Shown here piece by piece: positions 4,757 through 64,000 of a DNA stretch of 64,000 nucleotides. Under the pieces are notes generated by a model, which searched no databases, was not told the DNA's origin, and saw only the letters and a program-made list of their open reading frames with translations. Origin of the DNA: Mya arenaria (taxonomy: Eukaryota > Mollusca > Bivalvia > Myida > Myidae); assembly GCF_026914265.1 (NCBI RefSeq), contig NC_069123.1, positions 49,112,949 through 49,176,948 of the forward strand, given 5' to 3'. The translations under genes and the position numbers were made by a program. Each line of letters opens with the position of its first letter. The first letter of the stretch is position 1.

Positions 4757-5727
4757 GACCATGGGCATTGGGCATTTAAAAGTGAATGTCGTGCTGGCAT
4801 TAAAAAGTGAGTGTTGTGCTAGCACGACATTGGAGATTCAAAAGTGAAAGTCGTTCTGGCACGCCATTGAACATTAGGTTTTCTAGGTTTTTATTTTAAA
4901 TCGAATGTTGTGCTGGCACGACATTTGACATTTAAAATCGAATGTTGTTCTGGCACGACATTTGACATTTAAAATCGAATGTTGTTCTGGCACGACATTG
5001 AATATTCAAAAATGAATGTCGTGCTGGCCCGACAATGGACATTCAAAAATGAATGTTGTGCAGACACGACATTGGACATTCAAAATCAAATGTTGTGCTG
5101 GCACTACATTGGACATTCAAAAGTGAATGTTGTGCTAGCACGACATTGGACATTCAAAAGTGAATGTCGTCCTGGCACGACATTGGACATTCAAAAGCAA
5201 ATGTTGGGCTGGCACGACATTGGACATTCAAAAGCAAATGTGCTGGCACGATATTGGAGATTAAAAAGTGAATGTTGTGCTGGCACGACATTTGACATTG
5301 CTAGCACGACACTCATATTTAAATGTCCAATGTCCAATGTCGTACTACATTCACTTTTCAATGTCCAATGTCCAATGTCGTGCTAGCACGGCTTTCATTT
5401 CTTAATGTCCAATGTCCAATGTCGTGCCACCAGCACGACTTTTATTTTTGAATGTCCAATGCCCAAATTCGTGACATTCATTTTTTAGTATCCATCGACG
5501 TGCCAGCAGGACTTTCATTTTTGAATGTCCAATGTCGTGCCAGCACGACTTTCATTTTTGAATGTCCAAAGTCCAATGCCGTGCCAGCACGACATTAATT
5601 TTTGAATGTCTAATGTCCAATGCCGTGCTAGCACGACTTTCATTTTTGAATGTCCAATGCCCAATGTCGTGCCAGCACGACTTTCATTTTTGAATGTCCT
5701 ATGTTTAGCTAACTTCACACAGCTATT
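4757..5727. repeat. Palindromic minisatellite (35-44 bp units, two opposed arms), relic of the element at 45121-48772
   Basis: From about 4757 to 5290, units containing GACATTGGACATTCAAAA and GTGCTGGCACGAC run in the plus direction. From about 5300 to 5700 the same unit runs reversed, so the two arms form a large inverted repeat with its centre near 5300. The right edge reads ATGTTTAGCTAACTTCACAC, identical to the right terminus of the 45-kb element, ending at 5727. The matching left terminus is missing; the array there merges into an ATT microsatellite. It is best read as an old copy lacking the unique interior and the left end. Open frames across it are repeat by-products. Confidence 0.85.
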
Positions 5728-20368: not shown

Positions 20369-21300
20369 TTATGAAATGTGGTCTTAATAAAATATGGGAT
20401 TCACGTTTATTAACGAATCTTTCATAAAACCTGTAATATAAAACAGATACTCGCATATTTAATTTTGTGTCGATAGTAAAGCACAATTAACAGTTATAGT
20501 AAATGTAATACTAGTAAGTATAACATTCATAGCCCAAATGCAAAACATATGAAACGAATCATTGCGATAATATATATGGTCCTCGTTCTTATTAAGTATT
20601 TATTTTTTTCTGATAGAGTTGTCATGTCATTATTTAATCAGTTCCATGAATACACTCTAATAAATTAGGAGAGTGTAGTCACAATAAAGAGTGAGAACTC
20701 TTCAGCATGTTTGTCACAGTTAGTTGAGTAGCATTTATCTCCCTTGAGCACCTGTCATATTTTATCACCTGTCCGCTAGACGGCGCGATAAATACTTCTT
20801 GTTACTAATTTGAGCGTTATATACCTTGCATTCTAAACATAAATAGGTCAGATAGAATAGTGCCATGAGAAAGTATATACATGATAAATTACTTCTTAAA
20901 ATGAAAGGGCTCAAACAGAATTACGAGTTGAGAAAAAATTAATGTGGATAATTGCATTTATCGATCAGACAACGCCTGAAAAATGGGATGGCCTTTGAAG
21001 AGGATCATTTGTGATTTTACGGAGGGGGCGTTTTGATTACATCTTCAAATTTAATCTGCTGTGACCGAAACGTGTGAATGGATTGTAAACAAGACATATC
21101 CTTTATGTCGAAGCGTTTATCCGACATATTTCTTGCTGTGACGTGGATAAAATAAACAACATTCTCGTACAAATCTGCCGATTGTTTTCAGATCAAGTGA
21201 TATCCTAACCAAGAGAAGTGTCCATACGACACATAGCAAAATGTGAGATATGGACGGTGTCATATCGTTGACATTTATGACTTACTCGTAATATTCTGAC
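20369..21300 (+). promoter_or_regulatory. Upstream region of the ARL4-type gene
   Basis: No coding sequence seen. A small hairpin (ACACTCT...AGAGTGT) lies at about 20653-20679. The promoter of the GTPase gene must lie here or further upstream if the leader is spliced. No firm promoter element identified. Confidence 0.3.
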
Positions 21301-21849
21301 ATGGGAGGCAGTTCTTCGACCCAAGTGACGATGCTAGGGTTGGACTCAGCTGGAAAAACCACCTGTCTTTACAGACTCAAGTTTGGCCAGTATACGGAAT
21401 CAAGACCAACAGTTGGATTTAATTGTGAGAAAATACAAGTTGAGAATAGCAGTGGTAAGACTTCCAATTTCACAGTTTGGGATGTTGGAGGGCACGATAA
21501 AACAAGACCTTTGTGGAAATCTTACTGCCGGAAATCTGACGGGATCATCTATGTGGTCGACAGTACGGACAAGGAACGCTTAGAAGAAGCTAAAGTAGAA
21601 TTAGTAAAAATACTGAAAGCGCCGGAGATTGCTGGATTACCTGTCGTGATATTAGCCAACAAACAGGACTTGCCTGGCTCGCTGTCTGGAAGTGATGTGG
21701 AAAGCGTGCTGGCAATGCGCGAGTTACCCACGAGCCAGCTGTGGCACGTTGAGCCTACGTGCGGGGTCACGGGGGAGGGGCTCGAGGAGGCCGTTGAAAA
21801 GATTGCCGACCTCATAGAGAAGAAACGGAAAGGCAAGCGGAAAAGATGA
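21301..21849 (+). CDS. arl4: ARL4-type small GTPase (ADP-ribosylation-factor-like)
   Basis: An intronless frame of 182 residues. MGGSSS gives Gly2 for N-myristoylation. The P-loop is GLDSAGKT (13-20), switch I is PTVGFN (36-41), the interswitch/switch II is WDVGGHDK (60-67), the guanine motif is NKQD (120-123) and the C-terminus is strongly basic (EKKRKGKRKR). RPLWKSY, DGIIYVVDS and RLEEAK match vertebrate ARL4A/C/D, which also have single-exon coding regions and a basic C-terminal tail used for plasma membrane or nuclear targeting and ARNO recruitment. An unusual feature is that the catalytic Gln of the GGQ motif is His (residue 65), followed by Asp. The next-best alternatives are ARL11/14, but the tail and RPLWKSY favour ARL4. 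Confidence 0.9.
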   Translation: MGGSSSTQVTMLGLDSAGKTTCLYRLKFGQYTESRPTVGFNCEKIQVENSSGKTSNFTVWDVGGHDKTRPLWKSYCRKSDGIIYVVDSTDKERLEEAKVELVKILKAPEIAGLPVVILANKQDLPGSLSGSDVESVLAMRELPTSQLWHVEPTCGVTGEGLEEAVEKIADLIEKKRKGKRKR

Positions 21850-27164: not shown

Positions 27165-28960
27165 TCTGCCAGCTCTTCTATTCCTTCTTCACCCTCCACC
27201 CTTCCTCCGGCCCTTATATTCCCTCCTCACCCTTCCTCCGGCCCTTATATTCCCTCCTCACCCTTCCATCGACCCTTATATTCCCTCCTCACCCTTCCAT
27301 CGGCCCTTATATTTCCTCCTCACCCTTCTTCTGGCCTTTATATTCCCACCTCACCCTCCTCCCGGCTATTATATTCCCTCCTCGCCCTTTTTACGACCCT
27401 TATATTCCCTCCTCGCCCTTCTTCCGGCCCTTATAGTCCCTCCCCACCCTTCTTCCGGCCCTTCTATTCCACCCCCATCTTTCTTCCGGCCCTTTTATTC
27501 CCACCTTACCCTTCTTCTGGCCCTTATATTCCCTCCTCATCTTTCCTCGGCCCTTCTTGTCCCTCCTCACCCTTCTTCCGGCCCTAATATTTCCACCTCA
27601 CCCTTCTTTCGCCCTTGTATTCCCACCTCACCCTTCTTCCGGCCCTTATATTCCCTCCTCATCCTTCCATCGGCCCTTCTATTCCATCCTCACCCTTCTT
27701 CTGACCCTTATATTCCCTCCTCTCCTTTCTTCTGACCCTTATATTCCCTCCTCACCCTTTTCCGGCCCTTCTATTCCATCCACATCCTTTTTCCGGCCCT
27801 TTTATTCCCTCCTTACCCTTCTTCTGGCCCTTATATTCCCTCCCCACCATTCTTCCAGTCCTTGCATTTCCTCCTCACCATTCTTCCAGCCCTTATATTC
27901 CCTCCCCACCCTTCTTCCGGCCCTTAATTCCTTTTCACCCTTCTACGAGCCCTTATATTCCCTCCACACCCTTCTTCCAGCCCTGATATTCCCTATTCAC
28001 CTTTATATCAGCCCTGATATTCCCTCTTCACCTTTCTATCAGCCCTGATATTCCCTCTTCACCTTTCTTCCAGCCCTTATATTCCCTCTTCACCTTTCTA
28101 TCAGCCCTGATATTCCCTTTTCATCCTTTTTCCAGCCCTCATATTCCCTTTAACCCTTCGTCCAGCCCTAATATTCCCTCTTCACCCTTCTATCAGCTCT
28201 TATATTCCCTCTTCATCGTTCTTCAAGCCCTTATATTCCCTCTTCGCCCTTCTTCCAGCCTTTATATTCCCTTTTCACTCTTTTTCCAGCCCTTATACTC
28301 CCTCTTCACCGTTCTTCCAGCCCTTATATTCCCTGTTCACCGTTCTTCCAGCCCTAATATTCCCTGTTCACCCTTCTTCCAGCCCTTATATTCCCTGTTC
28401 ACCGTTCTTTCAGCCCTTATATTCCCTCCCCACCCTTCTTCCAGCCCTTATTTTCCCTCTTCAGCCTTTTTCCTGCCCTTATATTCCCTCTTCACCGTTC
28501 TTTCAGCCCTTATATTCCCTGTTTAACCTTCTTTCAGCCCTTAAATTCCCTCGCCATCCTTCTCCCAGCCCTTATATTCCATCCCCACCCTTCTTCCAGC
28601 CCTTATATTCCATCCCCACCCTTCTTCCAGCCCTTATATTTCCTCTTCACATTTCTTCCGGCCCTTGTATTTCCTCTTCACATTTCTTCCAGCCCCTATA
28701 TTCCCTCTTCACATTTCTTCCGGCCCTTATATTCTCTCTTCACCTTTCTATCAGCCCTTATATTCCCTCTTCACCTTTCTATCAGCCCTTATATTCCCTC
28801 TTCAACTTTCTTCCGGCCCTTATATTCCCTCCTCGCCTTTCATCCAGCCCAGGCAGTCTATTTCCTCTTCACCCTTCTTCCGGCCCTGATAATCCTTTTA
28901 CTGCCCTTAAATTCCCTCTTCATCCTTCTTCCGGCGCTTTATTTTCTTCATCCTTCCAGC
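27165..28960 (+). repeat. 31-bp pyrimidine-rich minisatellite, about 58 copies
   Basis: The unit is of the form CGGCCCTTATATTCCCTCC then TCACCCTTCTTC; early copies repeat exactly every 31 bp. The plus strand is almost purely C/T apart from the TATA core and GG, giving strong strand asymmetry. The left half uses mostly CCGGCCC and the right half mostly CCAGCCC variants, with the last few copies mixed. As 31 is not a multiple of three, all three frames cycle through the same peptide, which produces the long open frames seen here. They are not genes. Confidence 0.92.
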
Positions 28961-33000: not shown

Positions 33001-36000
33001 CACTTGGGTGTTTATTCTCAATGGAATGCTGCATATATAAGGACATAACAGTGTGGGTTGTCAACTATGGGTGGTATTTTTTTTATGTTTAGAGGCAATT
33101 TAAAATAACTTGCCATATGTATTTGACATGTAAAGGCAAGATCAACTTTTCATGTACTGACCTTGTTCATAGGTCAATGTCACAATCGGGGCATTCGTCA
33201 CATACTGTGACAGCTCTTGTTTTCTGTAACAAATCTCAGGACAATTATTTAATAAAATGTTTTACTCTTTGATATCATAATTGTAAAAAAAAACATACCA
33301 AAATTTAAAAAAAAATCGAGTCCGAGACAGGCCTCGAACTGGTGTCGCCCAGTGTGCAGTTCAGTGTTGTATTCACTGTGCTACAAAGGCTTACCCTAAG
33401 CAGTTTGAATATTTAAGCTATATACCTAACATGGTCATATCATATGATAATATCAATTAGCCAATCATACATAAGGAATGAGTTCTACAAGGTAGACATA
33501 CCTAGTAATCTCTTTTAATGGAAAAAACTGCGAAAAATAAATTTATTGTAAACTTTGTGGTACTTCAGTTAGTAGGTTTCAATGCATTGTACACATCGAT
33601 ACCAAGTTTATGTTAGTTTTAAACAATTTTCTTTTGTTTTCATTGTTTCATCATACAGAGTACAGCCCCTTTAAACCGTTTGTAACAGTTTAAGTCATAA
33701 AACATTAATTTTCGAACGGAAATATGAAAATGTACGATCTGAATTTTTTGTCAGCAATCTTGTAACATTGGTATGCAGGTATTTACTCAAAAACTTGCTC
33801 TTTTCAAGACAAAAAATAAAAAAGTTGTAAAAATGCTATATCTGTGAGAGTGCAGCTTTAACAGCGAAAAGTGTGTATGAACTGTTTTCGTTAGGTACAG
33901 AATATTTGGTACAAGGTACAGAAGAGAAACAATCTCACTGTGATTTATCTTTAATAAAAATTGTCACATGTGTCATGACTTGGGGATTAAGCCCAGGTGG
34001 ACATCATAATTGCATTGTTAAGAGCTTGCCAAACTACAGACATAACAGAGGTTTGAAATGCTCATGTAGCTGACATAATTCCAGGTTAATCATTTCAGTG
34101 ACTGAGTGAAATTTCTTTTTTTTTTGTCATTTACACACACATGAAATGAAAATATCATCTATGGTGTTCATAAGATAAAATTGAAATGATATTTTATTTT
34201 GAAAACCAATTTTAAGTTCTCATGAGTAAAAAGAGCTCAGCTGGAGCTATAATGTTAGGGTGATTGTCAGTCATCCGTCCCTCCCTTCGTTGTCAACATG
34301 TTCCTTCAAACAACTTTCTCCTTAAGAATTGGGACAATTTCAACCAAACTTCATAGGAATGTTTCTTGGATGGTTCTCTTCCAGATTTCGTAAATAAAAG
34401 TGGTTCCATGCAGAATTTTGTTTTGCCATGGAAACCCAAATTAGAAACTTTTAAAATCTTCTTCTCAGAAACTGCTGGCTGCCCAGTTTTAAAATAATTT
34501 TAAAAAAAGTTTCTTAGGAGATCCTTTTATCATTATAATTTTTATTATTTTAATATTTAAAAAAAATAAAAAAATTATTGTTTTACAATCATCGAAGATA
34601 TATACAAGATACACAATAAAGATTTTTTATTTTTTTTATTTGGGTATTATGATAACAAGAAACATCAGCTCAATGAGCTATATTCCAACAGGAATGACAT
34701 AACAATTAACTGCTGACCTGGAAATATAAGCATATAGTTTGAATTCAGTTACATAATGGAAAAAGTATTTACAAAAGCCATTTCATTATTTCATGCAGGC
34801 TATGACAAAAGTAATTGGATTGGAGCACTGTATACAATGGTAACACCAACTCATTTTTTCTGGGCCATCTAGCTTTTCCTGACCAACTATTAACTTGAAA
34901 CTTCATGAACTTTTTTTTGCAACTTAACAATGGGCCCTTTTGTGACAAGTTATATAACTCCATCTAAAATATTGTAATAGTTAATGGCCCTTTGTAACTT
35001 TTCATAAACATATTTTTCATGTTTGTATATGCCTGTTTAAAAAGGCGACATACTGTAGTTTTACCTGTGATGCCTGGCATTTGAGTGGGCTGCGTCCAAT
35101 ATGTTTTCTGATCATTAATTTCAAAACCCTTTTTCAATTAAGACCAAAATTGGTCAGAATGTGTATGAGTATAATATCTTGAACAATTTTAATAACCAGC
35201 CATATCGTTGTAGTAACTCAAGAGTTGTCACCCTTTAGTTATAGGTATTGTACTATCACTTACTTAACAAGCAATTGTCCAGTCATCACCAGATTTGATC
35301 AGAATGTGTATGGGCATGATACCTTCAACAGGTTTGATAACTAGTCAAATCCCTGTAGTCACCCAAGAGTTATTGTGATTTCATTATAGAAATGTTTAGA
35401 GCACCATTAAAGTTCTACTCAGATCAGCAATATAGGGCCATCTTGAGCCTCTTGTTTTTACCACAAGAAAGCATATAATAATAATTTATGTAGTATTACC
35501 ACCTTTCTTCAGAGCTCGACCAATAGCAATACGGTAAAAGTGCCCCTTCATATATCGATGAAAACTTTGTGATATTGAGATAGCATTTGCTACGTGTAAC
35601 AGGGATTGTGGCCAAAAAGAATATTTAAGGCATTTTTATAAACCTAAAATTAGCTGAACATTTGATGATTTGCTTCAGTGACTCCTGGGGCTGACATGAA
35701 TTGTCAAGGGTTGTTGTGGGTTCTGGGTGAAGTTGTAGTATCAGTGACTCCTGGGGCTGACATGAATTGTCAAGAGTTGTTGTGGGTTCTGGGTGAAGTT
35801 GTAGTATCAGTGTCTGCTGGGGCTGACATGAATTGTCAAGGGTTGTAGTGGGTTCTGGGTGAAGTTGTAGTATCAGTGACTCCTGGGGCTGACATGAATT
35901 ATCAAGAGTTGTTGTGGGTTCTGGGTGAAGTTGTAGTATCAGTGTCTGCTGGGGCTGACATGAATTGTCAGGGGTTGTAGTGGGTTCTGGGTGAAGTTGT

Positions 36001-39000
36001 AGTATCAGTGACTCCTGGGGCTGACATGAATTGTCAAGAGTTGTTGTGGGTTCTGGGTGAAGTTGTAGTATCAGTGTCTGCTGGGGCTGACATGAATTGT
36101 CAAGGGTTGTAGTGGGTTCTGGGTGAAGTTGTAGTATCAGTGACTCCTGGGGCTGACATGAATTGTCAAGAGTTGTTGTGGGTTCTGGGTGAAGTTGTAG
36201 TATCAGTGTCTGCTGGGGCTGACATGAATTGTCAGGGGTTGTAGTGGGTTCTGGGTGAAGTTGTAGTATCAGTGACTCCTGGGGCTGACATGAATTGTCA
36301 AGAGTTGTTGTGGGTTCTGGGTGAAGTTGTAGTATCAGTGTCTGCTGGGGCTGACATGAATTGTCAAGGGTTGTAGTGGGTTCTGGGTGAAGTTGTAGTA
36401 TCAGTGACTCCTGGGGCTGACATGAATTGTCAAGGGTTGTTTTGGGTTCTGGGTGAAGTTGTAGGATCAGTGTCTGCTGGGGCTGACATGAATTGTCAAG
36501 AGTTGTTGTGGGTTCTGGGTGAAGTTGTAGTATCAGTGTCTGCTGGGGCTGACATGAATTGTCAAGGGTTGTAGTGGGTTCTGGGTGAAGTTGTAGTATC
36601 AGTGTCTGCTGGGGCTGACATGAATTGTCAAGGGTTGTTGTGGGTTCTGGGTGAAGTTGTAGTATCAGTGACTCCTGGGGCTGACATGAATTGTCAAGGG
36701 TTGTTGTGGGTTCTGGGTGAAGTTGTAGTATCAGTGACTCCTGGGGCTGACATGAATTGTCAAGGGTTGTTGTGGGTTCTGGGTGAAGTTGTAGTATCAG
36801 TGACTCCTGGGGCTGACATGAATTGTCAAGAGTTGTTGTGGGTTCTGGGTGAAGTTGTAGTATCAGTGACTCCTGGGGCTGACATGAATTGTCAAGAGTT
36901 GTTGTGGGTTCTGGGTGAAGTTGTAGTATCAGTGACTCCTGGGGCTGACATGAATTGTCAAGAGTTGTTGTGGGTTCTGGGTGAAGTTGTAGTATCAGTG
37001 ACTCCTGGTGCTGACATGAATTGTCAAGAGTTGTTGTGGGTTCTGGGTGAAGTTGTAGTATCAGTGACTCCTGGGGCTGACATGAATTGTCAAGAGTTGT
37101 TGTGGGTTCTGGGTGAAGTTGTAGTATCAGTGACTCCTGGGGCTGACATGAATTGTCAAGAGTTGTTGTAGGTTCTGGGGGAAGTTGTAGTATCAGTGAC
37201 TCCTGGGGCTGACATGAATTGTCAAGAGTTGTTGTAGGTTCTGGGGGAAGTTGTAATATCAGTGTTTGCTGATACCGACATGAATTGTCAAGGGTTGTTG
37301 TGGGTTCTGGGTGAAGTTGTAGTATCAGTGACTCCAGGGGCTGACATGAATTGTCAAGAGTTGTTTTGGGTTCTGGGTGAAGTTGTAGTATCAGTGTCTG
37401 CTGATACCGACATGAATTGTCAAGGGTTGCTGTGGGTTCTGGGTGAAGTTGTAGTATCAGTGTCTGCTGATACCGACATGAATTGTCAAGGGTTGTTGTG
37501 GGTTCTGGGTGAAGTTGTAGTATCAGTGACTCCTGGGGCTGACATGAATTGTCAAGGGTTGTTGTGGGTTCTGTGTGAAGTTGTAGTATCAGTGTCTGCT
37601 GATAAGGACATGAATTGTCAAGGGTTGTTGTGGGTTCTGGTTGAAGTTGTAGTATCAGTGACTCCTGGGGCTGACATGAATTGTCAAGGGTTGTTGTGGG
37701 TTCTGTGTGAAGTTGTAATATCAGTGTCTGCTGATACCGACATGAATTGTCAAGAGTTGTTGTGGGTTCTGGGTGAAGTTGTAGTATCAGTGTCTGCTGG
37801 GGCTGACATGAATTGTCAAGGGTTGTTGTGGGTTCTGGGTGAAGTTGTAGTATCAGTGACTCCTGGGGCTGACATGAATTGTCAAGGGTTGTTGTGGGTT
37901 CTGGGTGAAGTTGTAGTATCAGTGACTCCTGGGGCTGACATGAATTGTCAAGGGTTGTTGTGGGTTCTGGGTGAAGTTGTAGTATCAGTGACTCCTGGGG
38001 CTGACATGAATTGTCAAGAGTTGTTGTGGGTTCTGGGTGAAGTTGTAGTATCAATGACTCCTGGGGCTGACATGAATTGTCAAGAGTTGTTGTGGGTTCT
38101 GGGTGAAGTTGTAGTATCAGTGACTCCTGGGGCTGACATGAATTGTCAAGAGTTGTTGTGGGTTCTGGGTGAAGTTGTAGTATCAGTGACTCCTGGGGCT
38201 GACATGAATTGTCAAGAGTTGTTGTGGGTTCTGGGTGAAGTTGTAGTATCAGTGACTCCTGGGGCTGACATGAATTGTCAGGAGTTGTTGTAGGTTCTGG
38301 GTGAAGTTGTAGTATCAGTGACTCCTGGGGCTGACATGAATTGTCAAGAGTTGTTGTAGGTTCTGGGGGAAGTTGTAATATCAGTGTCTGCTGATACCGA
38401 CATGAATTGTCAAGGGTTGTTGTGGGTTCTGGGTGAAGTTGTAGTATCAGTGACTCCAGGGGCTGACATGAATTGTCAAGAGTTGTTGTGGGTTCTGGGT
38501 GAAGTTGTAATATCAGTGTCTGCTGATACCGACATGAATTGTCAAGGGTTGCTGTGGGTTCTGGGTGAAGTTGTAGTATCAGTGTCTGCTGATACCGACA
38601 TGAATTGTCAAGGGTTGTTGTGGGTTCTGGGTGAAGTTGTAGTATCAGTGACTCCTGGGGCTGACATGAATTGTCAAGGGTTGTTGTGGGTTCTGTGTGA
38701 AGTTGTAGTATCAGTGTCTGCTGATAAGGACATGAATTGTCAAGGGTTGTTGTGGGTTCTGGTTGAAGTTGTAGTATCAGTGACTCCTGGGGCTGACATG
38801 AATTGTCAAGAGTTGTTGTGGGTTCTGGGTGAAGTTGTAGTGTCAGTGACTCCTTGGGCTGACATGAATTGTCAAGAGTTGTTGTGGGTTCTTGATGAAG
38901 TTGTAATATCAGTGTCTGCTGATACCGACATGAATTGTCAAGGGTTGTTGTGGGTTCTGGGTGAAGTTGTAGTATCAGTGACTCCTGGGGCTGACATGAA

Positions 39001-41046
39001 TTGTCAAGAGTTGTTGTGGGTTCTGGGTGAAGTTGTAGTATCAGTGACTCCTGGGGCTGACATGAATTGTCAAGGGTTGCTGTGGGTTCTGGGTGAAGTT
39101 GTAGTATCAGTGTCTGCTGATACTGACATGAATTGTCATGAGTTGTTGTGGGTTCTGGGTAAAGTTGTAGTATCAGTGTCTGCTGATACCGACATGAATT
39201 GTCGAGGGTTGTTGTGGGTTCTGGGTGAAGTTCTAGTATCAGTGTCTGCTGATACCGACATGAATTGTCAAGAGTTGTTGTGGGTTCTGGGTGAAGTTGT
39301 AGTATCAGTGTCTGCTGATACTGACATGAATTGTCAAGAGTTGTTGTGGGTTCTGGGTAAAGTTGTAGTATCAGTGTCTGCTGATACCGACATGAATTGT
39401 CAAGAGTTGTTGTGGGTTCTGGGTGAAGTTGTAGTATCAGTGTCTGCTGATACTGACATGAATTGTCAAGGGTTGTTGTGGGTTCTGGGTGAAGTTGTAG
39501 TATCAGTGTCTGCTGATACCGACATGAATTGTCATGAGTTGTTGTGGGTTCTGGGTGAAGTTGTAGTATCAGTGTCTGCTGATACCGACATGAATTGTCA
39601 AGGGTTGTTGTGGGTTCTGGGTGAAGTTCTAGTATCAGTGTCTGCTGATACTGACATGAATTGTCAAGAGTTGTTGTGGGTTCTGGGTGAAGTTGTAGTA
39701 TCAGTGTCTGCTGATACCGACATGAATTGTCAAGGGTTGTTGTGGGTTCTGTGTGAAGTTGTAGTATCAGTGTCTGCTGATAAGGACATGAATTGTCAAG
39801 GGTTGTTGTGGGTTCTGGTTGAAGTTGTAGTATCAGTGACTCCTGGGGCTGACATGAATTGTCAAGGGTTGTTGTGGGTTCTAGGTGAAGTTGTAGTATC
39901 AGTGTCTGCTGATACCGACATGAATTGTCAAGGGTTGTTGTGGGTTCTGGGTGAAGTTGTAGTATCAGTGTCTGCTGATACGGACATGAATTGTCAAGGG
40001 TTGTTGTGGGTTCTTGGTGAAGTTGTAGTATCAGTGTCTGCTGATACCGACATGAATTGTCAAGGGTTGTTGTGGGTTCTGGGTGAAGTTATAGTATCAG
40101 TGTCTGCTGATACCGACATGAAGTGTCAAGGGTTGTTGTGGGTTCTGGGTGAAGTTCTAGTATCAGTGTCTGCTGATACCGACATGAATTGTCAAGGGTT
40201 GTTGTGGGTTCTGGGTGAAGTTGTAGTATCGGTGTCTGCTGATACCGACATGAATTGTCAAGGGTTGTTGTGGGTTCTGGGTGAAGTTGTAATATCAGTG
40301 TCTGCTCTGCCTCTCACTAAAGAGGTTGTGGGTTTTGTCCCAACCAGTGATACTTTCTCAAGGCCTCTTGATATGGCCAATTAGTACTGGTGTCTTTCCA
40401 GGAAAATAACAAAAGAGGGATTCCATAAACATCCTTATTGCAATCAAGCTTAAAGAAATAGGCATTTTAATAAATAAGTTGTTTAAATTTGACCTTATGG
40501 ACTTTTTCACTATATTAGTCATTATGTTTCTGAACAAAAAGAACAGAATTTATGCATTGACATACTTACATTATACAATTATGTTTTTATTTTTTTTGTA
40601 ATAAAAGAATGTTCTAAAGTCATGTTTTGTTTCAGGGTTACCACAAAGGACTAGCCTTCGGGGAGAAGGTGTTCAGGGGCAAGAACTATGGCGTGTGCAG
40701 AATTGATTCTGGCTACAAGTTTGATTGGATTTTGGTGCCAAAAGAACAAGAACAAGCTATCATTGACTCAGTTAAATCGTCCTATCCAACAAAAGAAACT
40801 GTTGTTCCATACGAGGTTACTGTTCCTCCTCTCATGAAAATGTTTATAAGTGGTGAGCTGAAGGCCCATGGGTATAGAGTTTCAGAAGACATGTTTGTGA
40901 CAAAGAGAAAAATTATCAAGAGTAAGTACAGCTTTGCTAAGCTGGATAAAAGTGCTGAAGATGTTCCCCCTGCCCCAGAGTACAAACTCATGATGAAGCA
41001 AGTGAAGAGGTCGATAAAGAAATCGGATGAAAAGGAAATCAGTTGA
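30092..41046 (+). CDS. mrps34: Mitochondrial small-subunit ribosomal protein mS34 (MRPS34), two coding exons
   Basis: Exon 1 is 30092-30268 and exon 2 is 40636-41046, joined in phase 0 (AAG|GTATAC and TTTGTTTCAG|GGT), for 195 residues. MSVIYVGKESYFHGKSLFQI, GIGRMVMRKKW, EPSYYRLTQV, AFGEKVFRGKNYG and DWILVPKEQE match the order of blocks in human and fly mS34 (GLGRLVTRKSW, EPCYWRLTRV, GILTFKGKTE, DWRLVPKHEE). The protein is a metazoan-type component of the mitochondrial ribosome small subunit. Start context is AAAAATG. The single visible intron is 10.4 kb and carries several mobile elements and a 4.6-kb minisatellite. I found no further exon inside it. The C-terminal tail is lysine-rich. Confidence 0.9.
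30269..32396. other. First part of MRPS34 intron, mostly single-copy
   Basis: No exon, RNA gene or long repeat apart from a possible small inverted-repeat element at 31396-31783. The phrase ACTAGGATTC recurs at about 30580 and 31290. Confidence 0.35.
31396..31783. mobile_element. Possible 388-bp inverted-repeat element
   Basis: AGTACCTAAATAAGG at 31396-31410 is repeated in reverse complement at 31769-31783. A TTCC/GGAA and ACAGT context is shared nearby. There is no clear target duplication and no coding content. Confidence 0.35.
32610..33221 (-). mobile_element. Nested hairpin-ended element with CTCTTGTT terminus
   Basis: It begins TTTTTATGCCCCCGAAGGTG and continues GGGCATATT (hairpin TATGCCC/GGGCATA), then a (CCGT)n tract and two copies of a unit of about 183 bp with GGGCTGTAACTTTCCC and AAGGTCAAGGTCACACTT. 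It ends GACAGCTCTTGTT. It is the same architecture as 6301-6929 in reverse orientation, inserted inside the TTAA element. Confidence 0.7.
33318..33393 (-). other. tRNA-like segment (Cys-like) inside the TTAA element
   Basis: The minus strand has an A-box-like TAGCACAGTGAATAC, a loop CTGCACA (GCA in anticodon position) and a B-box-like AGTTCGAGGCC. The acceptor stem does not close properly. It is probably a tRNA-derived promoter or a decayed SINE rather than a tRNA gene. Confidence 0.5.
34228..35456 (-). mobile_element. Hairpin-ended element with CTCTTGTT terminus
   Basis: The left end AAGAGCTCAGCTGGAGCTAT can form a small hairpin; the right end is CTTGAGCCTCTTGTT. The interior includes a CCGTCC tract near the hairpin end, TTCCTTGGATGG-like phrases shared with 41200, and the phrase GGTCAGAATGTGTATG shared with 42550 and 43750. 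There is no coding content. Confidence 0.55.
35675..40306 (+). repeat. 66-bp minisatellite, about 70 copies, in MRPS34 intron
   Basis: The unit is 66 bp and contains GCTGACATGAATTGTCAAG, GGTTGTTGTGGGTTCTGG and GTGAAGTTGTAGTATCAGTG. Variants at one site (GACTCCTGGGGC, GTCTGCTGGGGC, GTCTGCTGATACC, GTCTGCTGATAAGG) show blocks. The left kilobase alternates two variants as a 132-bp dimer, the middle is mostly the first variant and the right is mostly GATACC. A segment starting at 37262 repeats at 38384 (1122 bp, 17 units), and the GATAAGG marker recurs at 37601, 38723 and 39779 (17 and 16 units apart). As 66 is 22 codons, frames stay open on both strands (up to 809 codons on the minus strand). Its position in an intron and its lack of any flanking gene structure favour non-coding. 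Confidence 0.93.
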
Positions 41047-45120: not shown

Positions 45121-48100
45121 GCTGTGTGAAGTTAGCTAAACATACGACATTGGACATTGGACATTCAAAATCGAATGTTGTGCTGGCACGACATTGGACA
45201 TTGGACATTCAAAAGTGAAAGTCGTGCTAGCACGACATTGGACATTGGACATTCAAAATCGAATGTTGTGCTGGCACGACATTGGACATTGGACATTCAA
45301 AAGTGAAAGTCGTGCTGGCACGACATTGGACATTGGACATTCAAAATCGAATGTTGTGCTGGCACAACATTGGACATTGGACATTCAAAAGTGAAAGTCG
45401 TGCTGGCACGACATTGGACATTGGACATTCAAAAGTGAAAGTCGTGCTGGCACAACATTGGACATTGGACATTCAAAAGTGAAAGTCGTGCTGGCACAAC
45501 ATTGGACATTGGACATTCAAAAGTGAAAGTCGTGCTGGCACGACATTGGACATTGGACATTCAAAATCGAATATTGTGCTGGCACGACATTGGACATTGG
45601 ACATTCAAAATCGAATGTTGTGCTGGCACGACATTGGACATTGGACATTCAAAAGTGAAAGTCGTGCTGGCACGACATTGGACATTCAAAATCGAATGTT
45701 GTGCTGGCACGACATTTGACATTGGACATTCAAAATTGAAAGTCGTGCTGGCACGACAGTGGACATTGGACATTCAAAAATGAAAGTCGTGCTAGCAGCT
45801 AGCACATTCAAATCAGTGTATGACATGTTTTATGAATGAATGGGTTTTTTTACCGACTTTAAATTAATTTGGATGGCATGCAATTTTCGGATATTTTGTT
45901 TGTTTGAGATATTGTCTTGAAATTATTTGAAAAGGGTTAGAGATCACAAAGCAATGAACCATTATAAAATTTATTAACACCAAGAGAGCATTGTCATGAC
46001 GATTCCATCGCAATATTTGAAACTTAAGCATGATTCAGATATATATGATGTCACATATGCAGAGAAAGATTCAAATGAATATACTTATGAATGGTCGTGG
46101 ATTATATGTAGACAAAAAGTGATAATGCTTTCAAAATGGCATTTTTAATAAGCTTAATGTAATCGTCCGTACACCTTTTTTATCTGGTTTTACGTAAACA
46201 CAAAAGAAATATTGTCAATGAGTCGATAAAGTAACCTATTCCTGCCTGTTGACTTGTTTTTTTTATCGACTCAGTTAGTCGAACATGCTACGTCGTCTTT
46301 ATTTGGTAAAGTTTATATGAAATAATTGTGTTCGATAAACCTTTTTGATATTTATAAGTCGACAGAATTACACAAAGCGTTTTATAATCAATCGCATCGA
46401 CATTAAATAATTCCAAATGACGTCTTCATCACATACGACATAAGTTCTTATAGGTTTTACAGAATATACAATTTATACATGTAAAATGTGACACCAGAGA
46501 CATTGGAAATGGCATCTCGGACAGAACTGACAATGGTTGAAAGGGTTGAAAGGAAACAAAGCGCAAATAATTATATAAACCCAACAAATGTGCACTTCAG
46601 TATGTGTTTATCTACAGAGCTTTAGAATAATTATATTACATTTATGAATGTGTCTGCATTTACGTGGGAATACATATGTATATCAATCGAAAGGATTGTT
46701 TTAATACAACTCTCAATAACAATGTTGCGGACTTTCAAATACAAGTTTCTTTGTTAAATATGTGTTAGGTACCTCAAAGGTATAATATTGTCGGACATGG
46801 ATGTGACTTAAGGCAACATACACACATCTAAACTTGTCAATGCATAAACCATTGGCGATAATGCTACATTTTGATGCATGGGGATCCCATATAAGTTTGG
46901 TATTATTTTAAAGGGTACTTCTGACAGATAATTAATGAGTAAAAATGTCCAACAATTATTATTTGTATACTGGTTGTCGTTTCATTATATTTTTTCTCTT
47001 AATATTTACCACTTCCATTGGATGCCTGAATAATATTTGGTCACTATGAATAGACAGATATACGTTATTATAAACCATATTTTAAAAAATAAAAGCCAAG
47101 TTGTATGTCGTTATTTAACACAATAATTTGAATGGACAAATTAGAATTGCAGCCTTATCACCAGTCAAAGATTTCGGATATATATATTTCTGCCACCTCA
47201 GAAAAGTAGATTCAAACATTTGTCCATGCGTGGAATTCTTATCTTCCCAACGGGCAAAGATAAACAAGTACCCGTATGGAACTCTTTTTATTGCCTTCAC
47301 TTTGCTGCATCCAGAACTATTTAAAGAACGATTTGACTATTAACATAATCTGAATCACTGCGCGAATATCTATGACAACCAGGAATTGTCATATATCTAT
47401 GCGCACATTATTTTCACTACGCACAAAAAATTTCCAGCGATAAAATACATTTTTACATTATTTTGTTTAACTGAGGTGAGAGAAAAAACATCTACCATAG
47501 TCGCTCGTGTAAGATAGGTTCATACCAACCCTCGCACAGGGTGTTCTGCGGAAACAGGTAAACCTCGTTTTCGCAAAAGACCCTACGCTCGGGTTGGGCT
47601 GAACCCATCTTACACTCTCGGCCATGGAAGATACTAATAGGCCACATAATGTGATTCTTGAGAAAAAAAATAAACTTGAGTGCTTCTACACTTGACAAAA
47701 AATAGCGTGAGACGGTGTCCAAGTGTGCATGTCGTGTGGTTTTGAATGTCCAATGTCGTGCTAGCACAACATTCGATTTTGAATGTCCAATGTCGTGCCA
47801 GCACAACATTCGATTTTGAATGTCCAATGTCCAATGTCGTGCTAGCACGACTTTCACTTTTGAATGTCCAATGTTCAATGTCGTGCCAGCACAACATTCG
47901 ATTTTGAATGTCCAATGTCGTGCCAGCACAACATTCGATTTTGAATGTCCAATGTCCAATGTCGTGCCAGCACGACTTTCACTTTTGAATAACCAATGTC
48001 CAATGTCGTGCCAGCACAACATTCGATTTTGAATGTCCAATGTCTAATGTCGTGCTAGCACGACTTTCACTTTTGAATGTCCAATGTCCAATGACGTGCC

Positions 48101-48772
48101 AGCACAACATTCGATTTTGAATGTCCAATGTCCAATGTCGTGCCAGCACAACATTCGATTTTGAATGTCCAATGTCGTGCTAGCACGACTTTCACTTTTG
48201 AATGTCCAATGTCGTGCCAGCACAACATTCGATTTTGAATGTCTAATGTCCAATGTCGTGCCAGCACAACATTCGATTTTGAATGTCCAATGTCGTGCTC
48301 CAATGTCCAATGTCGTGCCAGCACAACATTCGATTTTGAATGTCCAATGTCGTGCTAGCACAACATTCGATTTTGAATGTCCAATGTCCAATGTCGTGCC
48401 AGCACGACTTTCACTTTTGAATGTCCAATGTCCAATGTCGTGCCAGCACAACATTTGATTTTGAATGTCCAATGTCCAATGTCGTGCTAGCACGACTTTC
48501 ACTTTTGAATGTCCAATGTCCAATGTCGTGCCAGCACAACATTCGATTTTGAATGTCCAATGTCCAATGTCGTGCTAGCACGACTCTCACTTTTGAATGT
48601 CCAATGTCCAATGTCGTGCCAGCACAACATTCGATTTTGAATGTCCAATGTCCAATGTCGTGCTAGCACGACTTTCACTTTTGAATGTCCAATGTCCAAT
48701 GTCGTGCCAGCACAACATTTGATTTTGAATGTCCAATGTCCAATGTCGTATGTTTAGCTAACTTCACACAGC
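45121..48772. mobile_element. 3.65-kb non-autonomous transposon with minisatellite inverted arms
   Basis: Both ends read GCTGTGTGAAGTTAGCTAAA inward, followed by CATACGACATTGG, and are flanked by TTA (45118-45120 and 48773-48775). Directly inside each terminus lies an array of 44-bp units (some 35 bp), about 15 on the left (45147-45800) and about 23 on the right (47745-48750), in opposite orientation. Units alternate between an AAAATCGAATGTTGTGCTGG type and an AAAAGTGAAAGTCGTGCTAG type, giving an 88-bp higher-order unit in both arms. The unique interior (45800-47740) has no transposase-like frame. TTA duplications fit PIF/Harbinger (TWA) but the superfamily is an inference. Open frames in the arms are repeat by-products. 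Confidence 0.85.
47495..47627. repeat. 133-bp imperfect palindrome (long hairpin) inside the 3.65-kb element
   Basis: The left half (CCATAGTCGCTCGTGTAAGAT...) pairs with the right half (...ATCTTACACTCTCGGCCATGG) along about 66 bp at roughly three-quarters identity. The turn is at AGGTAAACCT, so it has almost no loop. It reads as one long stem on either strand. Confidence 0.75.
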
Positions 48773-57666: not shown

Positions 57667-60600
57667 GCGGGTGATGCATCTAGTCGACAGAAGCGGTCTG
57701 CGTTGGATGGGACATGCAGCAGTCCGCTAGGGATCTCACGGGACTCCATTAATGTCCAGGTGGGCTTCACCATCAGCGAGGAGAATGACCATCCCGCACA
57801 TGGACTTCTATTCCGGTCCCCTAACGCGGACGATAACTCATATATCCAGGTACATGCTTCATTGAATGGTATGTCGTTGTAATGTATTCCGCTGTGGGAT
57901 GTTTAACCATATTATACAAGCAACAATATCGTTATAACTTTGTTGAAATTGATTTATTGTCTTAATACTTATACAGAAAAATAGCAGCTGGCAGATATTA
58001 TTTTGAACGGAATTTAGTAAATCCAAGCCTTAAATAATTCATTTTACAATAGCGTTACTGACCACAAAATAAAGAATTGTCTGACACATTTGATAAGTGT
58101 TAACAAAAGGAACAAATGGAATAATCATAAATTTGGAACGAAGTGCTTTTTCTTTGGTATGCTGCAATAATGATTGCATGATGTTTTATTATTTAAACAA
58201 GCATGTTCTTCACATTTCATACATGTTCCTTTAATGATATTCATCCCTTACAACCGTCAAAACGGGACAAAGAGGAGAGGTGGTTCCTGGATCGCTTCAA
58301 AGAAATATTTGCTATCATTTTGCAAATAGCGTTGATTCAAATAGAACAAGATATCATAGACATATATCTTTTTTACTTTGTCACAAAATAATTCAGTTAC
58401 CATGGAGACAGGTTTCCATTGGTCAGGTGGAGTTCCAGGACCCGATGCTCATTACCGGGATGGTGACCCAAGACAGCCCGAGCGCCCTCTCGCGTGTCAC
58501 CCACTTCCAGATCGCCCATAGCACCGACTGCATCCAATTCCGGTCTGTCGAGGACAGGAACGGACAGCCAAAGGTGGTTGACAGCTCATTGATACTTTAA
58601 TAATTTATAGTTGTATTTATACGTAACACTTTTTTTCTGGTGTTCAATATATTTGTTTAAATGAAAATTGCATGTTACATTAATTGAAACGTTCTTCCTG
58701 GAAACAGTTTGTTTTGCTTTTCAAATCACAGTTAGTTCGTGCTCATCGGTTTTTACGCACCGTAAAACAATCTACTGCCTTTCATCAAGTCATTCACTGC
58801 TGTCATTATAATTAAAATTCAGCGTGAAAGAATGCACTTGAGGCAACATAATTGAAGTATACTGGTGTCTACTATCCTCTGTCAATATAATAATTGCTTG
58901 CTTTATTATGTTGAAAAGAGAGACACTCCTTTTACTGCAGTAAGGCACGGCTGTCTTATACAGCATAAACATGGTGGTTTGTAGATAAGTGAGTGATTTA
59001 GGGCCTCCATGGTACTCTTATCCAAACTTAAAATTAAAATGTAGATACCTGACATATACACCAGAACTAGAAATACATAACCATTGAAACAAACATGCAG
59101 TTTGATTAGTATTTTATTGTTATAAAATGTTGTCCAACAAAAATACAAAGGTGATCTAGAGTTGTCGGCGCCTGTCAAATGATTAAGTATCGCTTTATTT
59201 TACCCGTCATAACACTGTTGCAGGAGTTTGCGGGTACGGTATTCGCTAACACGACGGCGACGGTGATGTTTGAGAGTGTGTTCGAGGCGCGGTGTGTGCG
59301 GGTCGTCCCCACCAGAAGGGTTGGTCACGATACCGCCATCAGGTTCGAGCTCCTCGGATGCGGTGAGTACACGACGTGTACTTGCGAGTAGCTGATCATG
59401 GTTTTCAACATCATTTTTCGATTCGTTTTCATACGATAAAGTCATCTTTTGCGTTTCAATGGGCGTATGATATGTTTAAAAGACTATACGTACTTTATCG
59501 GATTTCATGCGTGTATCTGATTCCATATTTTTCTTGCAGCCCCGATGCAGTGCCAATCTACCATTATGCCCCGGTCAGATGAGCGGCCAGGCTCTTACCT
59601 CCGAAAGTTCTTGTTTGACAAAGAAAAGGTCATTACGTCCCTGACCATATCGCTGCGCGGCCCAGCGACTGAAGGCAATGTCGCCTTCATGCTTGCATAC
59701 AGCCGCACATGCGACTTTGACGGAGGAAATATTGTCATGGAGGACAACATACCAAAGGTAAAGGAAAACCGAAGTACAACTTTTTACCGTCATATTTGAA
59801 ATAGCACAATCCTTTATTCTAAGTTATATACAAAATGTGTTGTTGGTTATAACGCCTTTTACACCACATGATTCACATTAAACCTATTTTAAGCAAGAGG
59901 TGTGTTAGTGGATGTCTTTATAAGTTTATATGAACACGTTTTATTTGCATCCTTATGATACAATTACAAAAAAAGAAAAGCAAGTTAAGCAACAACAACA
60001 GAGCGCCCTTTATTTTTATGTTGTCTCTGTTTTACAGGTGTTCATTATACCAGAGGGCGAGCAGGATGTCAGAGTTACCGGGACATCACTCCCCTTACGC
60101 ACCCAGTGTCTGGGCGTCCTCACCCCCGACCCGGCTCTGCTGACGTCAGATGAGCACATGCTACACCAGTCACCCCGTATGCGCTCCGTCTTAGCGGATG
60201 ATTATGACGTCTCGTTTGAAGGATGCGGTGGGAACATTGTTTATTTTCCGATCTCTTCAGTTAGAATAACGCTTGGCATTGTTACCAATTTTAAACAACC
60301 TTTGCTTTGATAACATACTTGCGTGACACAGTAACTATATGTACGTATTCAATGTCTGAATCGTGTTTTAATTTTCTTTACAGATGCTCTCGATCCTCAC
60401 GGTGAGTTTATATAAAATTATACTATATCTCCGTCACAATCAAAAAGTATAGATCAACTTTGAAAAAAAAAACATTTTAAAAGAAAGCTCTGATATCAAC
60501 TGATGACAAGGTCAATACGACACGAGATTTGTGTTTAATATGCTTTATATTGAACAGAACCATTGGACTCCTGCGGCAAGACGTACGTCTCGGAACACGA

Positions 60601-60783
60601 CGTCCATCGGCGCCGGAAACGCGTTGTGGGAGGGTCACCGATTCTGCCAGGGGAGTGGCCGTGGCTTGTGTCGCTACACTTTCTACCTGGCCACGCTTTC
60701 ACTGACAGGTCCGGTTTGGATCACTTGTGCGGTGGCTCCCTTATTAACCAACACTGGGTTCTCACCGCCGCGCACTGCTTCAG
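57667..60783 (+). CDS. Secreted discoidin-domain trypsin-like serine protease, internal exons, gene continues right
   Basis: Seven exons in consistent phase: 57667-57849, 58427-58573, 59224-59362, 59540-59757, 60038-60227, 60384-60401 (18 bp) and 60558-60783, giving 373 residues so far. Visible residues 17-156 form a discoidin (F5/8 type C) domain from [12 protein letters not shown] through [15 protein letters not shown] and ARCVRVVP to FELLGC. Residues 157-292 are a Cys-containing module that I do not recognise. A linker with Cys304 leads to the basic activation site RRRKR|VVGG (320/321) and the start of an S1 domain: [14 protein letters not shown] and LTAAHC with catalytic His371. The Asp and Ser of the triad lie beyond the window. 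RQKR at 7-10 is another furin-type site. First exon(s) and signal peptide are not found. Cys304 probably tethers the propeptide to the catalytic chain. Confidence 0.85.
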
Positions 60784-63700
60784 GTATGTCAGCAATGTCC
60801 AGTATAAGCGTACACATCTCTACCGTCGCGCTCTGCTTAAGGTTTATCGACAGTGTCTAATATGGGAGTACAACTCTCTACCGCCGCCCACTGCTACAGG
60901 TAAGTCGGCAGTATCCGATATGAGCGTACAGCTCTCTTCCGCCGCGCACTGCTTCGGGTATGTCGGCAGTGTCCAGTGTGAGCGTACAGCTCTCTTCCGC
61001 CGCGCACTGCTTCAGATATGTAGGCAGTGTCCAGTGTGAACATACAACTCTTTTTCGCAGCACACTGCTTCAGGTTTGTCGGCAATGTCTAGTATGAACG
61101 TTCAACTCTCTAAAGCCACCCACTGCTTCAGGTAAGCCAGCAGTGTCCACTATGAGCGTACAGCTCTATTCCGCCGCGCACTGCTTCAGGTATGTCGGCA
61201 GTTACCAATAAGAGCGTACAGCTCTCTTCCGTCGCGCACTGCTTCGGGTTTGTCGGCAGTTACCAATAAGAGCGTACAGCTCTCTTCCGTCGCGCACTGC
61301 TTCGGATACGTCGGCAGTTACCAATAAGAGCGTACATCTCTCTTCCGTCGCGCACTGCTTCGGGTATGTCGGCAGTTACCAATAAGAGCGTACAGCTCTC
61401 TACCGCCGCGCACTGCTTCAGGTATGTCGGCAGTGTCCAGTGTGAGCGTCCAGCTCTTTACTGCCGCGCACTGCTTCGGGTCTGTAGGCAGTGTCCAGTG
61501 TGAGCGCACAGCTCTTTACCGCCGCGCACTGCTTCAGGTATGTCGGCAGTGTCCAGTGTGAGCGTACAACTCTCTACCGCCGCGCACTGCTTCAGGTATG
61601 TCGGCAGTGTCCAGTGTGAGCGTACAGCTCTCTACCGTCGCGCACTGCTTCAGGTTTGTCGGCAGTGTCCAATATGAGCGTACAGCTCTCTACCGCCGCG
61701 CACTGATTCAGGTATGTAGGCAGTGTCCAATATGAGCGTACAACTCTCTTCCGCCGCGCACTGCATCAGGTATGTAGGCAGTGTCCAGTGTGAGCGTACA
61801 GCTCTTTACCGCCGCACACTGCATCAGGTATGTCGGCAGTGTCCAATGTGAGCGTACAACTCTTTACCGCCGCGCACTGCTTCAGGTATGTCGGCAGTGT
61901 CCAGTGTGAGCGTACAATTCTGTTCCGCCGCACACTGCTTCAGGTATGTCGGCAGTGTCCAGTGTGAGCGTACAACTCTTTACCGCCGCCCACTGCTTCA
62001 GGTATGTAGGCAGTGTCCAGTGTGAGCGTACAGCTCTCTACCGCCGCGCACTGCTTCAGGTATATCGGCAGTGTCCAGTGTGAGCGTACAGCTCTTTACC
62101 GCCGCGCACTGCTTCAGGTATGTCGGCAGTGTCCAGTGTGAGCGTACAATTCTGTTCCGCCGCACACTGCTTCAAGTATGTAGGCAGTGTCCAGTGTGAG
62201 CGTACAGCTCTTTACCGCCACCCACTGCTTCAGGTATGTAGGCAGTGTCCAGTGTGAGCGTACAGCTCTCTACCGCCGCGCACAGCTTCAGGTATGTCGG
62301 CAGTGTCCAATAAGAGCGTACAGCTCTCTACCGCCGCGCACTGCTTCAGGTATGTCGGCAGTGTCCATTGTGAGCGTACAACTCTCTACCGCCGCGCACT
62401 GCTTCAGGTTAGTCGGCAATGTCCGATATGAGCGTACAGCTCTCTTCCGCCGCGCACTGCTTCAGGTATGTCGGCAGTGTCCATTATGAGCGTACAGCTC
62501 TCTACCGTCGCGCACTGCTTCATGTATGTCGGCAGTGTCCAATATGAGCGTACATCTCTTTTCCGCCCCGCAATGCTTCATGTAAGTCGGCAGTGTCCAT
62601 TATGAGCGTACAGCTCTCTTCCGCCGCGCACTGCTTCATGTATGTCGGCAGTGTCCAATATGAGCGTACATCTCTCTTCCGCCGCGCAATGCTTCATGTA
62701 TGTCTACAGTGTCCAATATGAGCGTACAGCTCTCTTCCGCCGCGCACTGCTTCATGTATGTCGGCAGTGTCCAGTTCGGGCGTACAGCTCTCATCCACCG
62801 CGCATTGCTTCAGGTATGTCGGCTCTCTTCCGCCGCGCACTTCTTCAAGTATTTAGGCAGTGTCCAGTATGAGCGTGCAACTCTCTACCGCCGCGCACTG
62901 CTTCAGGTATGTCGACAGTTTCCACTATGAGCGTACAAATCTCTACCGCCGCGCATGCTTCAGGTAGATCGGCAGAGTCTAGTAAGAGCCTTAAACTCTC
63001 ACCGCCACGCACTGCTTCAAGTAAGTGGTCAGTATCCAGTATGAGAGTACAACTCCGTACAACCGCGCACTGCTTTAGGTTTGTTGGCGGTGTCCGGGTT
63101 GAGCCAAGAACTCAAGTATGTAAGCAAAGTTAAGGCTAAGTCCCCACTCCGCCTTCCATTTATGCATGTATGTATGCAGTGTTCAGGGTGAGTGTCCACT
63201 CCGCCGTGCACTGCTTCAGTTATATCAACAGTGTTCAGGGCGAGTGTCCACTCCGCCGCGCACTGCTTCAGTAACATCGGCAGTGTTCAGTAATAGTGTC
63301 TACTCCTCTGCACCAACTTAAATTATAAAGGCGGTGTTCAGGGTGAGTTTTCACTCCGCCGTGCACTGCTTCAGGTATATCAGCAGTGTTCAGGGCGAGT
63401 GTCCACTCCGCCGCGCACTGCTTCAGTAATATCGGCAGTGTTCAGGAATAGTGTCTACTCCTCTGCACACTACTTGAATTATATAGGCGGTGTTCAGGGT
63501 GAGTTTTCACTCCGTCGTGCACTGCTACAGTAATGTCGGCATTGTTCAGGGGAAGCGTCCACTCTGCCGCGCACTACTTCAGTTAAGTCGGCGGTATTCA
63601 GGGTGAGTGTCCACTCCGATGCGCACTGCGCACTACTTCAGTTAAGTCGGCGGTGTTCAGGGTGAGTGTCCTCTCCGCTGCGCACTACTTCAGTTAAGTC

Positions 63701-64000
63701 GGCAGTGTTCCGGGTGAGTGTCCTCTCCGCTGCGCACTGCGCACTTCTTCAGTTAAGTCGGCGGTGTTCATGTTGAATGTCCACTCCGATGCGCATTGCA
63801 CCCTACTTCGGTTTAGTCGGCGGTGTTCAGGGTGAGTGTCCACTCCGCCATGCACTACTTCAGGTTGGTCGGCAATGTTCAGGGTGAGTGTCCGGCAGTG
63901 TTCAGGGTGTGTATCAACTCCGCCGCGCACTACTTCAGGTAGGTCGGCGGTGTTCAGGATGAGTGTCCACTCTACCGCGCACTACTTCAGGTAGGTCGGC
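60784..64000 (+). repeat. Minisatellite made of the protease exon end plus splice donor (58-bp, then about 52-bp units)
   Basis: It starts at the exon 7 donor and fills the intron to the window edge. To about 63000, some 38 units of 58 bp carry CCGCCGCGCACTGCTTCAG, then GTATGTCGGCAGTGTCCA and GTGAGCGTACAGCTCT. The first part is the last 19 bases of exon 7 (coding A-A-H-C-F) and the second is the start of the intron. From about 63170 to the edge the units are about 52 bp and read TTCAGGGTGAGTGTCCACTC then CGCCGCGCACTACTTCAG, with GTTAAGTCGGC or GTAATATCGGC. Unit length is not a multiple of three, so frames cycle. Open frames here are by-products. Confidence 0.93.

Follow-up and report, generated by a model that had tools for sequence, protein, structure and literature searches.

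The intron between exons 7 and 8 of an S1 protease gene in the clam Mya arenaria consists almost entirely of a minisatellite that starts inside exon 7, each repeat unit corresponding to the final 20 nt of that exon followed by 38 nt of intron, with a total of about 60 units. We consider it probable that this is a neutral exon-boundary minisatellite of the kind named "mirage" in amphioxus, whose decoy donor sites are for the most part ignored by the splicing machinery. The window analysed is a stretch of 64,000 nucleotides (Mya arenaria, contig C2, positions 49112949-49176948), and the gene lies on its plus strand and runs through its end, so the last exons carry coordinates beyond the window in the same numbering. 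The features referred to below are the following.

60384-60401, plus strand: probable exon 6, an 18-nt microexon in the context acag/ATGCTCTCGATCCTCACG/gtgagt, its phase with exon 7 followed by hand
60558-60783, plus strand: exon 7, from the VVGG activation site to the catalytic His (LTAAHCF), by translation and Pfam Trypsin
60764-60783, plus strand: exon core common to the array consensus, identical over 20 nt and encoding T-A-A-H-C-F plus AG
60784-60789, plus strand: true 5' splice site GTATGT, GT at 60784, placed by exon phase
60897-60905, plus strand: donor of unit 2, CAG/GTAAGT, GT at 60900, +116 nt, frame-shifting, by consensus scan and translation
60955-60963, plus strand: donor of unit 3, CGG/GTATGT, GT at 60958, +174 nt, by translation of the joined exons
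60764-62823, plus strand: 58-bp block, 36 units in exact 58-bp register by anchor spacing (anchors 60769-62799)
62824-63115, plus strand: decayed units at a spacing of 35-58, by anchor search
63116-64000 and on past the window to about 64276, plus strand: related 52-bp block, by anchor and repeat search
64469-64602, plus strand, beyond the window end: exon 8, by phase and GT/AG
64724-64882, plus strand: exon 9, donor GT at 64883, by phase and GT/AG
65058-65236, plus strand: exon 10, by phase and GT/AG
65349-65510, plus strand: exon 11, by phase and GT/AG

The protease gene looks intact. Exons 7-11 match the Pfam Trypsin profile PF00089 over its full length (1-220 of 220) at 1.2e-55, and the match includes all three triad motifs, LTAAHCF for the His in exon 7 and DIAL (Asp) and GDSGG (Ser) in the exons downstream of it; the exons that carry them are open and in phase, with borders predicted from the sequence by phase and GT/AG. 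In addition, an approximate join of three exons of the same gene matched the F5/8 type C domain in Pfam at 1.2e-9. While the array-bearing intron measures 3,685 bp, the remaining introns between exons 7 and 11 span only 112-175 bp. This intron is probably old and sits at a conserved protease position. Downstream of the gene lies a separate 42-bp minisatellite of 15 units (L009:6701-7325, where L009 numbering equals window numbering minus 60051), the consensus unit of which has CTCGTAAGC.

The first-pass annotation had described the end of exon 7 and its donor as repeated about 38 times at 58 bp, and the minisatellite is real, the figure being a good estimate of the 36 units that keep the exact register. 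Its "about 20 bases" of exon correspond to exactly 20 nt that equal the array consensus, while the intron part of the unit, put at about 35 bases, is 38 nt long. Upstream of 60764 the identity between exon and consensus ends, leaving just a short, shifted CTC/TCTC likeness. The shared 20 nt code the residues T-A-A-H-C-F at the catalytic His, which form a protease-family motif; exon 7 is therefore the source of the array, which was seeded at the exon border, in line with what had been suggested. A deletion breaks the register of unit 35, and the variant units noted up to the window edge resolve into decayed units and the 52-bp block, several units of which have an additional donor-like site, either AGGGTGAGT or CGGGTGAGT. 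The total of about 60 units derives from 65 anchors, the exon's own included and several of them weak or partial, that were retained from 68 found at up to 13 edits once the first and the last two had been dropped as spurious. Units average 90% identity to the consensus and differ from one another by about 13-17%, from which we infer that the array is not recent. A genome search with a 401-base query, scoring only the best candidates and skipping very common words, returned 11 matches, all of them at the protease locus; an origin by insertion of a repeat from another locus, where the unit would mainly be found, is thus not supported.

The true donor, CAG followed by GTATGT, has one mismatch to CAG/GTRAGT and a U1 duplex energy of -8.3 kcal/mol. 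Between 60700 and exon 8 there are 374 GT dinucleotides, 30 of which lie within one mismatch of this consensus and 52 within two, the true donor included, leaving 29 and 51 sites, respectively, distal to it. In 500 dinucleotide shuffles the corresponding counts were 1.06 on average (sd 1.02, maximum 6) and 7.5 +/- 2.6, and positions 1-60700 of the window hold 10 sites at one mismatch or less on both strands together, or about 0.3 per array-length stretch and strand. The abundance of donor-like sites in the array is therefore not due to chance. It had been claimed that each unit offers a donor, many of them perfect. Dozens of donor-like sites do exist, but "each" was somewhat too strong, given that among units 1-34 the GT is kept in 32, AG/GT in 22 and the exact CAGGTATGT in 15. 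Likewise, "perfect" holds for copies of the gene's own donor, while measured against CAG/GTRAGT it applies to a single site in the scanned stretch, the unit 2 donor at 60900. When U1 duplex energies are compared, 34 distal sites match (13) or surpass (21) the true donor. All 34 pair in register, so the apparent strength of the better ones does not stem from shifted U1 pairing. Of the 21 better sites, 20 have at most two mismatches to the consensus, and 12 of the 21 lie at the far end of the array, between 63603 and 64260.

To predict the outcome of distal donor use, each of the 51 distal sites at two mismatches or less was joined in silico to exons 8-11. The unit length does not preserve the reading frame (58 mod 3 = 1), and 50 of the 51 donors led to an early stop located over 50 nt upstream of the final junction. 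Only the donor at 60958, three units away, stays in frame without a stop, adding 58 residues that end in a second AAHCF stretch, SSAAHCFG. This refines the earlier proposal that distal use would add residues next to the active-site His or shift the frame.

We found no sign of selection on the donors. Conservation of the donor 9-mer in units 1-35 is 91.1%, which ranks 30 of 58 among circular windows, and the exon-derived columns reach 91.3% against 89.0% for the rest of the intron part, so that donor columns are conserved no better than the others. Selection against near decoys was not apparent either, the ratio of donor-core to other mismatches being 17:69 for units 1-12 compared to 11:79 for units 13-34 (Fisher p 0.22), and donors do not decay towards the exon beyond the general divergence seen there (rank trend p 0.73). 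Pairwise identity falls from 0.874 between neighbouring units to 0.827 at 20 units apart, and the match to the consensus averages 50.3/58 in units 1-10 compared to 53.9/58 in units 11-34. Divergence is clear on the exon side and weak at the opposite end of the 58-bp block (54.2/58 in units 11-29, 52.8/58 in units 30-34), indicating concerted evolution from which the edge units are left out. This identity pattern is expected under neutral concerted evolution. RNA structure as a means of hiding the donors was rejected, as the folds gave z scores of +1.33 and +0.27, with 182 and 119 of 200 shuffles, respectively, folding at least as well.

The best surviving alternative, although an unlikely one, is that several proximal repeat donors are used and yield isoforms, chiefly the in-frame form from unit 3. 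This donor pairs with U1 almost as stably as the true donor does (-7.6 versus -8.3), keeps the frame and introduces no stop, and unit 2 provides a perfect donor. There is also a human precedent, IFI6, which is described as splicing from two downstream repeat units to give three mRNAs (PMC4526556). Against such use stand the early stops predicted for the other 50 distal donors at two mismatches or less and the lack of donor-specific conservation. Furthermore, the IFI6 repeat unit is 12 bp long, and 58, unlike 12, is not a multiple of 3.

We regard it as improbable that the gene is decaying or silent and that the array is tolerated since nothing depends on it. Selection on the protein is hard to gauge by comparison, as no close paralog is among the matches listed (at most 56% identity for those of at least 50 codons). 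Nevertheless, exons 7-11 remain open and in phase, with the His, Asp and Ser motifs in place, beside an array whose units differ to the extent given above.

An equally improbable extension of the finding is that minisatellites repeatedly start at exon 3' ends in this genome and are tolerated at any copy number because GT at the start and AG at the end of so many units would make mis-spliced extensions GT-AG introns that can be removed later. Donor-bearing minisatellites are common in Mya arenaria, and triplets of donor motifs were counted genome-wide against the reversed motif: 3,700 versus 2,393 for AGGTRAGT, 9,159 versus 7,369 for AGGTRWGT, and 1,672 versus 809, about twofold, for CAGGTATGT at 49-79 bp. 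In contrast, the strictest pattern, CAGGTAAGT, was rarer than its reverse (211 versus 377). The evidence for a genome-wide excess is thus mixed, three of four patterns being higher and the strictest lower, and the counts are not independent, since in the places listed the matches bunch in a limited number of arrays; the twofold figure for CAGGTATGT may reflect either seeding at exon ends or a few large arrays. Fourteen arrays were hand-picked from the matches listed on C1 and the start of C2, and 11 of them could be followed to their 5' edge; of the remaining three, L053 and L070 extended beyond the stretch analysed, and the filter for periods of at least 18 left nothing of L064. The first unit overlaps a plausible exon end in two of these 11 arrays, L065 and L072, while inspection of open frames by eye showed no exon in the other nine, and the open frames upstream of L066 and L069 had no Pfam match. 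The two candidates are as follows.

L065, exon about 1172-1361, array region 1172-1601: 52-bp units, about 42 nt common with the exon end, donor AAG/GTAAGT
L072, exon about 813-885, region about 813-1801, reverse strand: 32-bp units, about 19 nt common with one mismatch, donor CAG/GTATGT

Coding support for these candidates is modest: with a codon score trained on 659 codons of the window's genes, their values were reached by 23 of 1,392 and 148 of 5,294 overlapping random open stretches. No convincing homolog was found for either in Pfam (E 0.077 for L065), in the genome (self-matches only) or in the PDB, where nothing was usable and a match of the L072 exon (9e-8) was discarded as the sum of many very weak repeat matches. 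By eye, the L072 candidate exon is short and kelch-like. Both are weaker candidates for exon-end minisatellites in the same genome. The array does not look like a trait of the protease family: at 20 other protease-like matches (L016-L035) the nearest tandem array (TRF score of at least 50) was 111 bases from where the matched stretch ends, none falling inside 100 bases, and eight of the 20 loci had no array at all. A motif fixed the position of the exon end in only some of these loci.

Other repeats were observed within the window. A 66-bp array of about 70 units (35675-40306) is open on both strands, as a stop-to-stop frame of 1,487 aa on the minus and in long frames on the plus strand. A pyrimidine-rich 31-bp array of about 53 units (27197-28850) contains in its consensus the acceptor-like stretch CTTCTTCCAG and is surrounded by a GC skew of about -0.4. 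Arrays with units of 37-44 bp at 4898-5704, 45144-45797 and 47782-48749 have a common palindromic core of the GTCGTGCTGGCACGAC type, which suggests a dispersed element. Additionally, an uninterrupted 185-aa frame at 21292-21849 resembles by eye an ARF/ARL GTPase, perhaps a retrocopy.

Less credible still than a silent gene is a self-correcting array, in which a further round of splicing from the true donor, or recursive splicing, would take out the stretches between donors, which run from GT to AG. The AG/GT found in register in 22 of 34 units gives an extension a GT at its start and in many cases an AG at its end, and of 35 unit ends inspected, that of the exon among them, 24 terminate in AG. 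The mean pyrimidine fraction upstream of the AG-ending unit ends is 0.69, compared to 0.53-0.68 in six acceptor stretches of the gene, two of which (exons 5 and 10) were placed about three and one bases off. However, the T content before the unit AG is low (0.24 versus 0.42-0.53), no good branch-point consensus was seen by eye, and 58 nt would be a very short intron. Finally, an assembly artefact is highly improbable: arrays are hard to assemble, and the copy number may be off even if the array is real, but the sequence contains no N, the units vary while holding an exact 58-bp register over 36 of them, and the array is present in what is likely a long-read assembly, the PacBio assembly of Mya arenaria (PMC10663159).

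Starting from what was observed, namely the anatomy of the array, its exon origin, the donor counts, the coding outcomes and the lack of donor-specific conservation, we favour a neutral boundary minisatellite with mostly ignored decoys and propose the following course. A tandem duplication would first have copied the 20 nt at the end of exon 7 together with 38 nt of intron, an event that matching TCTC at the two break points may have aided. Unequal exchange or slippage would then have raised the copy number to about 60 units, so that an intron once measuring perhaps some hundreds of bases reached 3.7 kb. The first donor, joined to the exon, would still be chosen in most cases despite the decoys, as the intact gene and the amphioxus precedent suggest. 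Distal use would yield almost only early-stop transcripts, to be removed by mRNA decay, and a single in-frame product, via unit 3, in which 58 additional residues follow the catalytic His-Cys-Phe. The decoys themselves would be neutral passengers of concerted evolution. Against this reading speak the 21 U1-better distal sites and the perfect donor just 116 nt off, as well as, by analogy, the use of repeat donors in IFI6, and the gene could also be silent or allele-specific. The locus offers a natural experiment on 5' splice-site choice, with an intact-looking gene facing 51 downstream competitors, 20 of them stronger by U1 pairing and nearly all destructive to the product if used, and junction counts here would gauge position next to the exon against site strength.

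Several known systems resemble this array. Minisatellite-like repeats spanning exon-intron boundaries were described in amphioxus Adh3 and named mirages; the globins BflGb6 and BflGb9 have them as well, and their instability in length between haplotypes shows in BflGb6, with 6 and 3 units in two haplotypes (PMC3087553). Troponin C is listed among the mirage genes as well (PMC3087553, PMC3902484), and PGBD5 is reported with 60- and 108-bp mirages of up to 7 units (PMC3902484). The amphioxus mirages are described as having AG/GT in many units, concerted evolution and divergent edge units (PMC3087553), and the clam array is alike in all of this: its tandem repeats straddle the exon-intron boundary, AG/GT splice signals are present in many but not all units, and its edge units diverge, clearly on the exon side and weakly at the other. 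The two differ in size, as the reported mirages reach 6 units in globin and 7 in PGBD5, whereas the clam array has about 60, in a 58-bp unit and a 52-bp block. For amphioxus, Adh3 data and globin RT-PCR are reported to suggest regular splicing despite AG/GT in many repeats (PMC3087553), an outcome that is predicted for the clam array.

Like the clam array, IFI6 has a minisatellite at an exon 3' end that offers repeated donors. The multiple splice donors of this IFI6 (6-16) minisatellite were reportedly noted by Turri in 1995. Its 12-bp unit keeps the frame, whereas the clam unit does not, and its repeat donors are described as used in mRNA, whereas those of the clam are predicted. Tandem duplication of proto-splice sites has been put forward as a route to introns in the Rogers model and in potato RdRp (PMC4974935), and fission yeast has 24-nt repeats with AGGC attributed to proto-splice-site duplication (PMC3629103). 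These cases share with the clam array the tandem copies with proto-splice sites and a repeated block that can resemble an intron, but there the duplication creates introns, whereas the clam intron is probably old and was enlarged. In earthworm metallothionein genes minisatellites lie in intron 1, the available part of that account not stating an overlap with the exon end (PMC12783039). A narrow literature search, with queries other than the class name, recognised no mollusc example of such an array, to which we give little weight. Taken together, the clam array is an extreme case of a rare, already described class, the mirages, with IFI6 as a related human case; what is new is the very high copy number, the two weaker candidates in the same genome and, likely, the mollusc host, which would extend the amphioxus class to another phylum and bears on how introns grow and originate.
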